A program made the translations under genes and the position numbers. DNA of 64,000 nucleotides from Natrialba aegyptia DSM 13077 (GTDB taxonomy: Archaea; Halobacteriota; Halobacteria; Halobacteriales; Natrialbaceae), in NCBI RefSeq assembly GCF_000337535.1, contig NZ_AOIP01000015.1, positions 451,259 to 515,258 on the forward strand, written 5' to 3'. Positions within the stretch are counted from its first letter, which is position 1, and the number at the start of each line of letters is the position of its first letter. Below the pieces are notes generated by a model. The model was not told the DNA's origin. It made no database searches and saw only the letters and a program-made list of their open reading frames with translations. Below are positions 54,769-59,278 of the stretch, piece after piece.

Positions 54769-55239
54769 CTACAACTCCTCGAGCGAGCGTAATTTCTGTT
54801 CGACCGCCGGCGGAAGGGCACTCGGGCCGTCGCGGACGCGGTGGTCGGGGATCAAGATTGGAGCCGGGTTTTCGGCGAGCGCCGTTCGGACGGTCGTGTG
54901 GTCGGACTGCTCGTCGGCGTCGAGCGTCGGCGTGACCTGTGTGAGAGTTTCGACGTCGAGCTGGTCGCCGTAGGGGATCTCGCGGACCTGTTCGAGGACC
55001 GCCCGTTGGTCCGTGGGGACCGTCAGTGCGACCTGGACGTCATCGAACGCGACGGGATCGAGGCCGTCTAAGTACTCGAAGATGCAATCGAGCACTGGAT
55101 GGTCGTCCTCGGCGTTCGATTCGGGCGTGTCGGGAACGGAGACGCTCAGCACCCGTCCGCTGGCGGCACCGAGTTGCACGTACCGGTCGAGATACGACGA
55201 TTCGCGCGCGTAAATACCGGCGTCCGTAGCGTCCTCCAT
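54769..55239 (-). CDS. MGMT-like protein lacking the acceptor cysteine
   Basis: A 156-residue protein whose C-terminal half is an alkylguanine-DNA alkyltransferase DNA-binding domain (VLEQVREIPYGDQLDVETL, then ALAENPAPILIPDHRV). In active enzymes the loop reads PCHRV; here it is PDHRV, so the alkyl-accepting Cys is an Asp. The N-terminal part (about 1-75) is a short acidic domain. Known alkyltransferase-like (ATL) proteins have W or A there and flag damage for repair. It is divergent from trpC; the intergenic region is shared. Confidence 0.78.
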   Translation of the reverse strand: MEDATDAGIYARESSYLDRYVQLGAASGRVLSVSVPDTPESNAEDDHPVLDCIFEYLDGLDPVAFDDVQVALTVPTDQRAVLEQVREIPYGDQLDVETLTQVTPTLDADEQSDHTTVRTALAENPAPILIPDHRVRDGPSALPPAVEQKLRSLEEL

Positions 55240-55315
55240 ACGCCTCCGTTGGTGATACGGCCTTGAATAGTCGCCGGTCACACCGCCGTGAGCACCGCCG
55301 ATGACGCAAGGTTTT

Positions 55316-55341
55316 TGTACAAAAGAGTACGTTGATGTACA
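55316..55341. promoter_or_regulatory. Phased GTAC operator-like array before trpC
   Basis: GTAC cores at 55317, 55327 and 55337 are spaced exactly 10 bp. The outer two form TGTACA. The array ends 3 nt before the trpC ATG, at the position of TATA box and transcription start for a leaderless transcript. The Methanothermobacter trp repressor TrpY binds TGTACA-type TRP boxes (established for that organism). A similar tryptophan-controlled switch here is inferred. Confidence 0.6.
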
Positions 55342-55344
55342 ATA

Positions 55345-56205
55345 ATGACTCAGGGTAGGGAGCTCGCACCCGCGGTGCGGTCCATCCTTACAGCCGCCAG
55401 CGAGCGCAACGACACCGCCGAGCGCGACCCTCTTGCGGTCGATGCCCGGTCGCTCACCGACGCGATCGACCGAGCGGAACGAGACGGTCGCGTGCCGGTA
55501 ATCGCGGAGGTAAAGCCGACGAGTCCGACGAGCGATGGCACTCGCGATGACGACCCCGTCGAACTCGCCACGGCGATGGTCGAGGGCGGGGCGACGGCGA
55601 TTTCGGTTCTCACCGAGCCAACTCACTTCGGCGGCTCGCCCGAGGCGCTGACCCGCGTCCGCGAGGCCGTCGACGTTCCGGTCCTGCGGAAGGATTTCGT
55701 GCTCGAGGAGGCCGGGATGGACGTCGTCGAGGCCGATCTGCTCCTGTTGATCGCCCGGTTCGTCGGCGTTCGCGAACCGACCGATTCGCGAGCCAGCCGG
55801 AACGCGACGCGTCCCGAGGCTGAACTCGACGAACTCGTCACCGCCGCCCGCGACCGCGGCTTCCAGCCGCTCGTCGAGGTCCACGACGAGGCCGAACTCG
55901 AATCCGCACTCGAGGCAGGCGCGGAGATCATCGGGATCAACAACCGCGATCTCGCCGAACTCGAGGTCGATCTCGACACGTTCGAGTCGGTTGCACCCGA
56001 AGTGCCTGACGACGTAACCCTGATCGCCGAGAGCGGAATCTCGGGACCGGCGGACGTTCGCCGGATGCGCGAGGCCGGTGCCGACGCCTTGCTCGTCGGC
56101 AGCGCGATCATGGACCACGACGGCGACACCGACGTTACCGCGAACACGCGAGCGCTGGTGCGAGCGACGGCGGAGACGGAGACACAAACACAGAGACAGA
56201 CATGA
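55345..56205 (+). CDS. trpC: Indole-3-glycerol-phosphate synthase
   Basis: A 286-residue TIM barrel of the TrpC family: [14 protein letters not shown] (catalytic Lys strand), [51 protein letters not shown] and [16 protein letters not shown]. It converts CdRP to indole-3-glycerol phosphate. An Arg/Thr-rich insert (about 140-155) interrupts it. It is the first gene of trpCBA, and its stop overlaps the trpB start. The leader holds the phased GTAC array. Confidence 0.95.
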
Positions 56206-57479
56206 GCAACACCGAATCAGACCACGCAGACGCGTCCGCCGACCAAGCCAACCGCAAGCGAACGTTCGGCGACTACGGCGGCCAGTACGTACCGGAGGCA
56301 CTGATGCCCGCCCTCCAGGAACTCGAGGACGCCTACGAGCGCTACGTCCTCGAGAACGAGGACGGCTTCATGGACGAGTTCAGCGAGCGAATGCGCGACT
56401 TCGGCGGACGGCCGACGCCGCTCCAGCACGCGGACCGACTCAGCGAGCGCTACGACCGCGACATCTACCTCAAGCGCGAGGATCTCGTCCACGGGGGCGC
56501 ACACAAGCTGAACAACGCGCTCGGGCAGGTGTTGCTGGCGAAGTACATGGGGAAAGAGCGGATCATCGCCGAGACGGGGGCGGGCCAGCACGGCACGGCG
56601 ACCGCGATGGCGGCGGCCCACCTCGACATGCCCTGCGAGATCTACATGGGGCGGACGGACGTGAACCGCCAGCGCCCGAACGTCTACCGGATGCGGATGA
56701 ACGGCGCGGCGGTCAACCCGGTCGAGGCCGGCAGCGGGACGCTGAAGGAGGCGATCAACGAGACGCTCCGGGACTGGGCGACCACCGTCGAGAACACCCA
56801 CTACGTCATCGGCTCCGTCGTCGGCCCGCACCCGTTCCCGCGACTGGTGCGGGACTTCCAGTCCGTCATCGGCGCGGAGGCCCGCGAACAGATCCAGGAG
56901 CAAGCGGGGCGACTCCCAGATAGCGTCGTCGCCTGCGCCGGCGGCGGCTCGAACACGATGGGAGCGTTCCACGAGTTCGTGCCGGACGAATCCGTCGACC
57001 TCTACGCGGTGGAGGCCGGCGGCTCGAGCCTCAAGATCGACGAGGAAGAGGGCGTCGCGCCGAACTCGGCGACGCTCTCGACCGGGACCGACGGCGTCCT
57101 CCACGGCGCGCTGACGAAGCTCCTCCAGACCGACGACGGGCAGATCGTCGAGTCCCACAGCGTGAGCGCGGGCCTTGACTACGCCGGCGTCGGCCCCGAA
57201 CTCTCGCGGCTCGTCGAGACCGGCCGGGTCACGCCGACGAGCGTGGACGACGAGGCCGCCCTCAACGGCTTCCATCGCCTTTCGAACCTGGAGGGAATCA
57301 TTCCGGCGCTCGAGTCGAGTCACGCGCTCGGATACCTAGAGGAGAACCACGAGGAACTCGGCGACCTCGTCGTCGTCAACGTCTCCGGACGCGGCGACAA
57401 GGATCTGGAGACGGTTCTCGAAGAGACCGAAAAGCGTGACCTCGAAGCCGCGCCGGACGTGGAGGTGTTCGACGCATGA
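56202..57479 (+). CDS. trpB: Tryptophan synthase beta subunit
   Basis: A 425-residue PLP enzyme. The PLP lysine is K102 in HKLNNALGQ, the ETGAGQHGT loop binds the substrate carboxylate, and [10 protein letters not shown] is the phosphate-binding loop. It joins indole and serine to tryptophan in the alpha2-beta2 complex. Overlaps of 4 nt with trpC before it and trpA after it show coupled translation. Confidence 0.97.
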
Positions 57480-58456
57480 GCCGCGAGACGCGAGCGGAGC
57501 GAGCGCCTCGGTCCGAGCGAACGGGGAACGAAGTGGCCCGTAAGCTGCGAGCCGACGGCGGCGAGCAACTGGCGACCGCGGACGGCGACATCGAAACCGC
57601 CATCCGCGAGAACCACCCTGCACTCATCACCTACATCACCGCCGGCGACCCCTCGCTCGAGGACACGAAGGCGTACGTCGAGGCACTCGACCGCGGCGGC
57701 GCGGACCTGATCGAACTCGGACTGCCCTTTTCGGAGCCGACCGCCGAGGGGCCGACCATCCAGGCCGCGATCAACCGCGCGCTCGACGCCGGAACGACGC
57801 CCGCACAGTTCTTCGACCTCGTGGATGAACTCGAAACCGAGGCCCCGCTGCTGGTGATGACCTACTACAACATGATTCTACAGTACGGGCCGAGCGAGGC
57901 GTCACGCGCCTCGAAAGCTGGCGCGGCGAAGCCGCAGAACAAGCCCGACGTCCGCCCGTTCGTCGAACGCGCGGCCGACGCCGGCCTCTCGGGCATCATC
58001 GTCCCCGACCTCCCCGCGGAGGAGGCCGACCCGCTTCGGGACGCCTGTGACGATCACGATATTGACCTCGTCTTCATCGTCGCGCCGACGACCGAGGGCG
58101 AGCGCCTCGATCGCATCATGTCCCGGGTCTCGGGCTTCGCCTACGTCCAGGCCCGTCTCGGGACCACCGGTGCGCGGGCGGACGTCTCGAACGCGACCCA
58201 CGACAGCCTGGCCCGCCTCGCCGGCTACGACGTACCCAAGGCGGTCGGATTCGGCGTCAGCGAGGGCGACCACGCCGCCGAGATCGTCGCCGCCGGCGCG
58301 GACGGCGTCATCGTCGGCAGCGCGCTCGTCGACATCATAGCCGACCACGGTGCAGGCGATGCACCTGCGGCGGCCGAACTCGAGGCCAAGGCGCGCGAAC
58401 TCAAGCAGGGTGCGCGCCGCGGACGGGAAGAAGCACCGGAACCAGAACAGCCATAA
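57476..58456 (+). CDS. trpA: Tryptophan synthase alpha subunit with extension and insertion
   Basis: A 326-residue TIM barrel. The catalytic Glu49 equivalent is E80 ([10 protein letters not shown]), and the Asp60 equivalent is Glu91 (TAEGP). [19 protein letters not shown] and VGSALVD bind phosphate. Bacterial TrpA has about 268 residues; here there are about 45 extra Arg/Glu-rich residues at the N-terminus and a basic insertion at 139-157 ([15 protein letters not shown]), both absent from homologues I know. The core is intact. Stop overlaps nothing; the ADH synthase gene follows after 24 nt. Confidence 0.93.
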
Positions 58457-58480: not shown

Positions 58481-59278
58481 ATGACTACAGCAGGACTCAA
58501 CGCGCGACTGAACCGGATCGGTACAGACGACTCGTACGTAATCATCCCAATGGACCACGGCCTCACGATGGGTGCCGTCCAGGGACTCAAAGACATCGAA
58601 TCGACCATCGACGGCGTCACCCGCGGCGGGGCCGACGCGGTGCTCACGCAGAAGGGGATCGCCCCCCGCGTCCACGATAACAAGAACGGGAAAGGCTACA
58701 TCGTCCACCTCAACGGCTCGACGACCATCGGGCCGGACGAGCAGGACAAACGCATGACCGGCACCGTCGAAGAAGCGATCAAAGCCGGGGCCGACGCCGT
58801 TTCGTTCCACATCAACGTCGGCTCGAACTACGAACCCGACCAGCTCACCCAGCTCGCGGAGGTTACCGAGACGGCGGACCGGTTCGGGATCCCGGTGCTC
58901 GCAATGGCCTACGCTCGCGGGCCGGGCGTCGACTCGACGGATGCGGAGTCGCTCGGCCACGCGGTCCGGCTCGCCGAGGAAGTCGGTGCGGACCTCGTCA
59001 AGACGGGCTACAGCGGCGACGCCGAGAGCTTCCAGCACGTCGTCGAATCGACGCGTCTGCCGGTAGTCATCGCCGGCGGCTCGCGGGGCACCGACCGCGA
59101 GACGGTCGAGATGGTCCGTGGCGTCATGGACGCCGGCGGCTCGGGCGTCTCGATGGGACGATCGATCTTCCAGCACGAGCAACCCGAAGCCATCACCCGC
59201 GCCGTCTCCGGCGTCGTCCACGACGACCTCTCGACCGAGGACGCCCTGACCGAGGCCGGACTGGCGCTCGAAGTCTAA
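58481..59278 (+). CDS. 2-Amino-3,7-dideoxy-D-threo-hept-6-ulosonate synthase
   Basis: A 265-residue class I aldolase of the DhnA/AroA' family: YVIIPMDHGLTMG, the Schiff-base Lys K174 in LVKTGYSGD, IAGGSRGTDRETVEMVR and GGSGVSMGRSIFQ. It performs the first step of the archaeal route to 3-dehydroquinate from 6-deoxy-5-ketofructose phosphate and aspartate semialdehyde. Placing it directly after trpA puts the start of the shikimate route and the end of the Trp route in one cluster. CTATACAC upstream suggests it may also have its own promoter. Confidence 0.93.
   Translation: MTTAGLNARLNRIGTDDSYVIIPMDHGLTMGAVQGLKDIESTIDGVTRGGADAVLTQKGIAPRVHDNKNGKGYIVHLNGSTTIGPDEQDKRMTGTVEEAIKAGADAVSFHINVGSNYEPDQLTQLAEVTETADRFGIPVLAMAYARGPGVDSTDAESLGHAVRLAEEVGADLVKTGYSGDAESFQHVVESTRLPVVIAGGSRGTDRETVEMVRGVMDAGGSGVSMGRSIFQHEQPEAITRAVSGVVHDDLSTEDALTEAGLALEV

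Follow-up and report, generated by a model that had tools for sequence, protein, structure and literature searches.

The trpC locus and its promoter

The window (the whole stretch of 64,000 nucleotides that was analysed) carries an operon for tryptophan biosynthesis, preceded by a compact promoter. Positions relative to the gene are counted from the trpC ATG.

55305..55310, + strand: BRE-like element CGCAAG, -40 to -35; conserved in 96 aligned haloarchaeal trpC promoters, with A at -37 and -36 in 100%
55312..55317, + strand: TATA-like element TTTTTG (consensus CTTATG), -33 to -28; T at -32, -31 and -29 98-100% conserved
55316..55321, no strand: half-site 1, TGTACA (GTAC at 55317-55320, -28 to -25), abutting the 3' edge of the TATA-like element; from the sequence and the promoter alignment
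55327..55330, no strand: half-site 2, GTAC (-18 to -15); G 98% and C 99% conserved, GTNC outside the Natrialbaceae
55336..55341, no strand: half-site 3, TGTACA (GTAC at 55337-55340, -8 to -5); G 100%, A 99% and C 98% conserved
55345..56205, + strand: trpC, indole-3-glycerol phosphate synthase, first gene of the controlled operon (NCBIfam NF041303, 400 bits)
56202..57479, + strand: trpB, tryptophan synthase beta (TIGR00263, 598 bits)
57476..58456, + strand: trpA, tryptophan synthase alpha (TIGR00262, 234 bits)
58481..59278, + strand: 2-amino-3,7-dideoxy-D-threo-hept-6-ulosonate synthase (first step of aromatic amino acid synthesis), counterpart of OE1472F (TIGR01949, 358 bits)

The order trpC, trpB, trpA, synthase gene is that of the trpCBA-OE1472F operon of H. 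salinarum (PMC4162585), and the synthase gene of the window is probably co-transcribed with trpCBA. In H. salinarum, both trpCBA-OE1472F and trpDFEG are induced in the absence of aromatic amino acids (PMC4162585). Among named relatives, Natrialba taiwanensis is the closest found; its TrpC shares 95% identity. TrpC of the window (55345-56205) has approximately 18 extra residues around residues 141-160, and in many relatives the tblastn match is interrupted at 141/160. Divergent from trpC and next to it lies a gene (54772-55239, - strand) for a protein of 156 aa with a borderline match to PF01035, the DNA-binding domain of O6-methylguanine-DNA methyltransferase (27.1 bits, cut-off 27).

The three half-sites lie within TGTACAAAAGAGTACGTTGATGTACA at 55316-55341. 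The first-pass annotation had described them as GTAC cores at 55317, 55327 and 55337 in exact 10-bp phase, the outer two forming TGTACA, and the sequence bears out both points. TGTACA is what we take to be the TRP box of the TrpY repressor of Methanothermobacter. The phased array stops 3 bp short of the trpC ATG at 55345. It had also been proposed that the array covers the expected TATA element and start of a leaderless trpC transcript. This agrees with the layout of BRE, TATA and half-sites, and the BRE and TATA elements that the array overlaps plausibly sit where a leaderless transcript would need them. Leaderless transcripts make up 72% of the coding transcripts of H. volcanii, and the published haloarchaeal BRE is CGAAA (PMC4983044).

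In the 4.6-Mb genome there is one exact phased GTAC triple and no instance of the reversed control pattern. If independence is assumed, the frequency of GTAC in the window predicts approximately 0.13 phased triples per genome and approximately 5e-7 within the 40 bp preceding one given ATG. Enrichment of lone TGTACA was rejected, with 3 in the window against 2.8 expected.

Conservation among haloarchaea

A set of 96 trpC promoters (83 distinct 40-bp sequences) was gathered from Natrialbaceae and other haloarchaeal families. The alignment was anchored at the start codon best matching the conserved block, so that the choice of start site leans slightly towards the block. All 96 promoters align over a sharply bounded block of 40 bp (-40 to -1): CGCAAG comes first, followed by CTTATG or CTTTTG and by half-sites that begin at -28, -18 and -8; upstream of -41 conservation ends. 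Half-sites 2 and 3 each contain three or four positions that are 90-100% conserved (-18, -17, -15 and within -8 to -5). The half-sites are GTAC in the Natrialbaceae and mostly GTNC in other families, the weakest member being locus L009. The mean best three-site GTAC score of the haloarchaeal trpC promoters is 11.08 of 12 at a spacing of 10 bp, and 6.6-7.4 at the other spacings from 6 to 16.

The decisive evidence is that register and half-sites are conserved at trpC promoters of haloarchaea that have no similarity left upstream of -41; thus, as judged from this alignment, the phased GTAC triple at trpC is not a product of chance. The same comparison refines the first-pass annotation, in that the exact GTAC triple is, by alignment, the variant that Natrialbaceae have of a wider GTNC array. 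When 293 genomes of the order were scanned, most Natrialbaceae genomes contained the triple, usually once (consensus GTACATATGAGTACGTCGATGTAC), with almost no matches to the reversed control pattern. The first-pass annotation had made its reading depend on GTAC phasing in close relatives, and this phasing proved to be conserved across the order and beyond. Most of the other exact triples inspected from the scan were set aside as idiosyncratic, being located in coding or repetitive DNA or unshared between distant species. A tandem repeat in one genome, CAGTACAGTCCAGTACAGACTAGTATAGC (locus L086, 1440-1590; genome G074, family f17), is GTAC-rich at 10-bp spacing; it is one of several such places in that genome and apparently unrelated to trp genes.

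The tryptophan regulon

An operator profile built from sequence only was run on 25 genomes. Each genome gave one strong match, at trpC, and of the weaker sites just one, ahead of trpD at the start of the trpDFEG operon, recurs from family to family. The scan used profiles and patterns, from which promoters with just one or two half-sites could escape. A genome-wide search for further arrays, which the first-pass annotation had suggested, yielded in the genome of the window, besides the single exact triple, a weaker register of five positions before trpD (GTAC at -47, GAAC at -37, AGAC at -27, GTAC at -17 and GTCC at -7), all in one 10-bp register that starts just downstream of a TATA element. 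In family f9 the triple at trpD is exact. In one genome of this family (G025) a further exact phased triple immediately precedes the start of trpB, in the DNA between trpC and trpB (locus L366, 1567-1590). The original proposal for trpCBA can thus be widened, since these matches lend good support to a regulon that also takes in trpDFEG.

Genome G025 also has, directly upstream of trpD, a gene for a winged-helix-turn-helix protein with a DUF7839 domain (locus L111, 597-1400). This protein was rejected as a general trp regulator, as the other trpD loci that were inspected did not show it.

Arrays in other Halobacteriota

We also read 36 trp loci from other, non-haloarchaeal families of Halobacteriota. 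In many of these the array precedes whichever trp gene comes first, be it trpC, trpD, trpE or trpB, and the sole peak of GTAC periodicity is at 10 bp. For the 32 loci outside family f21 whose genomes carry TrpY, the mean best score is 9.50 at a spacing of 10 bp versus 7.2-7.8 elsewhere, 9 of the 32 not being individually significant. Two f21 loci, with TrpY, showed no array at their TrpC-like gene. Two genomes that lack TrpY also showed no array (score 6.0), which suggests a tie between array and TrpY; since both belong to a single lineage, this comparison is suggestive only. Taken as a pattern of sequence, the phased array is well supported as an ancient tryptophan operator common to the archaeal phylum Halobacteriota.

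A candidate regulator

The first-pass annotation had stated that the window contains no TrpY-like gene. This is true of all 64,000 nt, and no regulator gene was seen beside the operator, but the genome encodes one elsewhere. The search for a TrpY-type gene that it had recommended found a single full-length member of the family on contig C19 (P0002, 167 aa; NCBIfam TrpY_fam NF053754, 232.9 bits, cut-off 180), an assignment made with the NCBIfam model. A TrpY-family gene is present in all 248 good-quality haloarchaeal genomes, with one copy each in nearly all, and in 193 of the 197 genomes of a phylum sample, nearly always as one copy. Because TrpY is nearly universal in the phylum, its co-occurrence with the array is weak evidence.

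The AlphaFold model of TrpY (pLDDT 87.6) consists of a helix-turn-helix followed by a ferredoxin-like domain, and the best PDB matches of the latter are amino-acid-binding ACT domains, e.g. that of IlvN. Autoregulation of trpY through the array was rejected, as there is no array at the trpY promoter and trpY is located apart from the trp genes. The 10-bp GTAC period is absent from the trpY promoters, which formed a control set, and trpY was not found adjoining trp genes in Methanosarcinaceae-like genomes.

Proposed mechanism and alternatives

We propose, with a probability of roughly 0.75, that the array is the operator of a tryptophan regulon at which TrpY loaded with tryptophan binds one face of the DNA and represses trpCBA-aroA' and trpDFEG. 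Operator and regulon are well supported by the sequence comparisons, and TrpY is the most likely binder. The ACT domain of TrpY would take up tryptophan, and the loaded protein would occupy neighbouring half-sites side by side on the same face of the helix. Bound TrpY would then cover the TATA element and the transcription start and shut out TBP, TFB and RNA polymerase, such that trpCBA-aroA' and trpDFEG would be repressed when tryptophan is plentiful. Of the cooperative repressor acting directly on trpCBA that the first-pass annotation had put forward, the operator stands and a TrpY is encoded in the genome; cooperativity and repression, like the dependence on tryptophan, we infer.

The array might be a genuine trp operator bound by another factor, e.g. 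an Lrp-type protein such as LrpA2/Trh1, which we consider unlikely. Lrp-type proteins are known to form oligomers and to wrap DNA whose sites are in helical phase, and binding of this kind would fit several half-sites one turn apart. The half-site of the array is, however, presumably identical to the TRP box assigned to TrpY, and in every case where the array was observed TrpY occurs as one copy. The published evidence on LrpA2 consists of a correlation in expression, a 14.9-fold induction in H. salinarum in the absence of aromatic amino acids (PMC4162585). A paper dealing with two Lrp proteins of this species makes no mention of trp or tryptophan.

The sign of regulation could also be the opposite, with the bound factor activating trp under tryptophan shortage, in the manner of Thermococcus Tar. 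Archaeal control of trp by activation has a precedent in Tar (PMC6737238), and the induction of trp genes in the absence of aromatic amino acids (PMC4162585) fits either sign. Yet the arrays of both trpC and trpD extend from the TATA element in the downstream direction across the start site, where a bound protein should block the transcription machinery rather than recruit it, and activation is on this account very improbable.

Hardly credible is the reading that only the core promoter is conserved (BRE, TATA, initiator and leaderless start context) and the GTAC phasing incidental: the first GTAC does abut the TATA element, and TATA and ATG context are expected to be conserved, but conservation at the haloarchaeal trpC promoters is not confined to BRE, TATA, the -10 WW element and start context, half-sites 2 and 3 are highly conserved where haloarchaeal core promoters have only the WW element (PMC4983044), and the 10-bp period is seen again in trp promoters of methanogens and at trpD, where the distances from the ATG differ, and is absent at the trpY control promoters.

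Comparison with known systems

The preferred reading, control by TrpY, resembles the TrpY/TRP-box system of Methanothermobacter thermautotrophicus in its TrpY-family helix-turn-helix protein and in its target, trp biosynthesis. Likeness extends to the boxes, if their sequence is as we take it to be, as two TGTACA and one GTAC lie over the trpC TATA element and start. In Methanothermobacter, trp is repressed by TrpY bound to TRP boxes in the presence of tryptophan; haloarchaeal homologues have been described as unexamined, and the Thermococcus kodakarensis homologue has no part in regulating trp (PMC6737238).

In Methanothermobacter trpY is located beside the trp operon and divergent from it, and is autoregulated via shared boxes, which is a feature of the locus and not of the family. 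Here, in contrast, trpY is on contig C19, unlinked to trp, with a promoter devoid of the array, and two trp operons would be under control. A further difference may be that three- to five-fold half-sites are found in one 10-bp register, as GTNC outside the Natrialbaceae. Based on its sequence, the trpC array most likely belongs to a TrpY/TRP-box system whose regulator is unlinked and whose half-sites are in helical phase, of a kind previously characterised in one methanogen. No earlier report of a phased operator in haloarchaea was found in the literature searched.

Tar (TK0271) of Thermococcus kodakarensis similarly exerts transcriptional control over trp and other aromatic amino acid operons in an archaeon, but it is an activator of another family and is encoded in the aro operon (PMC6737238). 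Lrp/AsnC proteins (LrpA2/Trh1 of Halobacterium) share with TrpY the combination of a helix-turn-helix and an amino-acid-sensing alpha/beta domain, and the TrpY model can be weakly aligned along its length with Lrp/AsnC structures; by NCBIfam the Lrp/AsnC proteins are a separate family.

Tryptophanase genes and significance

Exact GTAC triples are also found upstream of tryptophanase (tnaA) in four genomes of one genus (g46, family f12; loci L092, L093, L094 and L095, each at 1501-1524). In the three measured they are located at approximately -71/-61/-51 from the start, the fourth being similar, ahead of a TATA-like element. From its sequence context this position appears activator-like. The array was rejected as a general haloarchaeal feature of tnaA; because nine plasmid-borne tnaA genes of Haladaptataceae are without it, it can at most be a feature of one lineage. 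In H. volcanii, the promoter of tryptophanase can be induced by tryptophan (PMC10448506). It is conceivable, if somewhat doubtful, that one tryptophan-sensing regulator uses the same array as a repressor over the TATA element and start (trpC, trpD) and as an activator just upstream (tnaA, in some Halobacteriaceae-like genomes). If true, this dual reading might explain tryptophan-inducible tryptophanase promoters, e.g. the PtnaA expression tool.

Archaeal repressors for which both operator and regulon are known are few. The result provides, at the level of sequence, a tryptophan operator that spans the phylum, together with a candidate regulator present in single copy, and the operator may bear on the workings of tryptophan-inducible haloarchaeal promoters.
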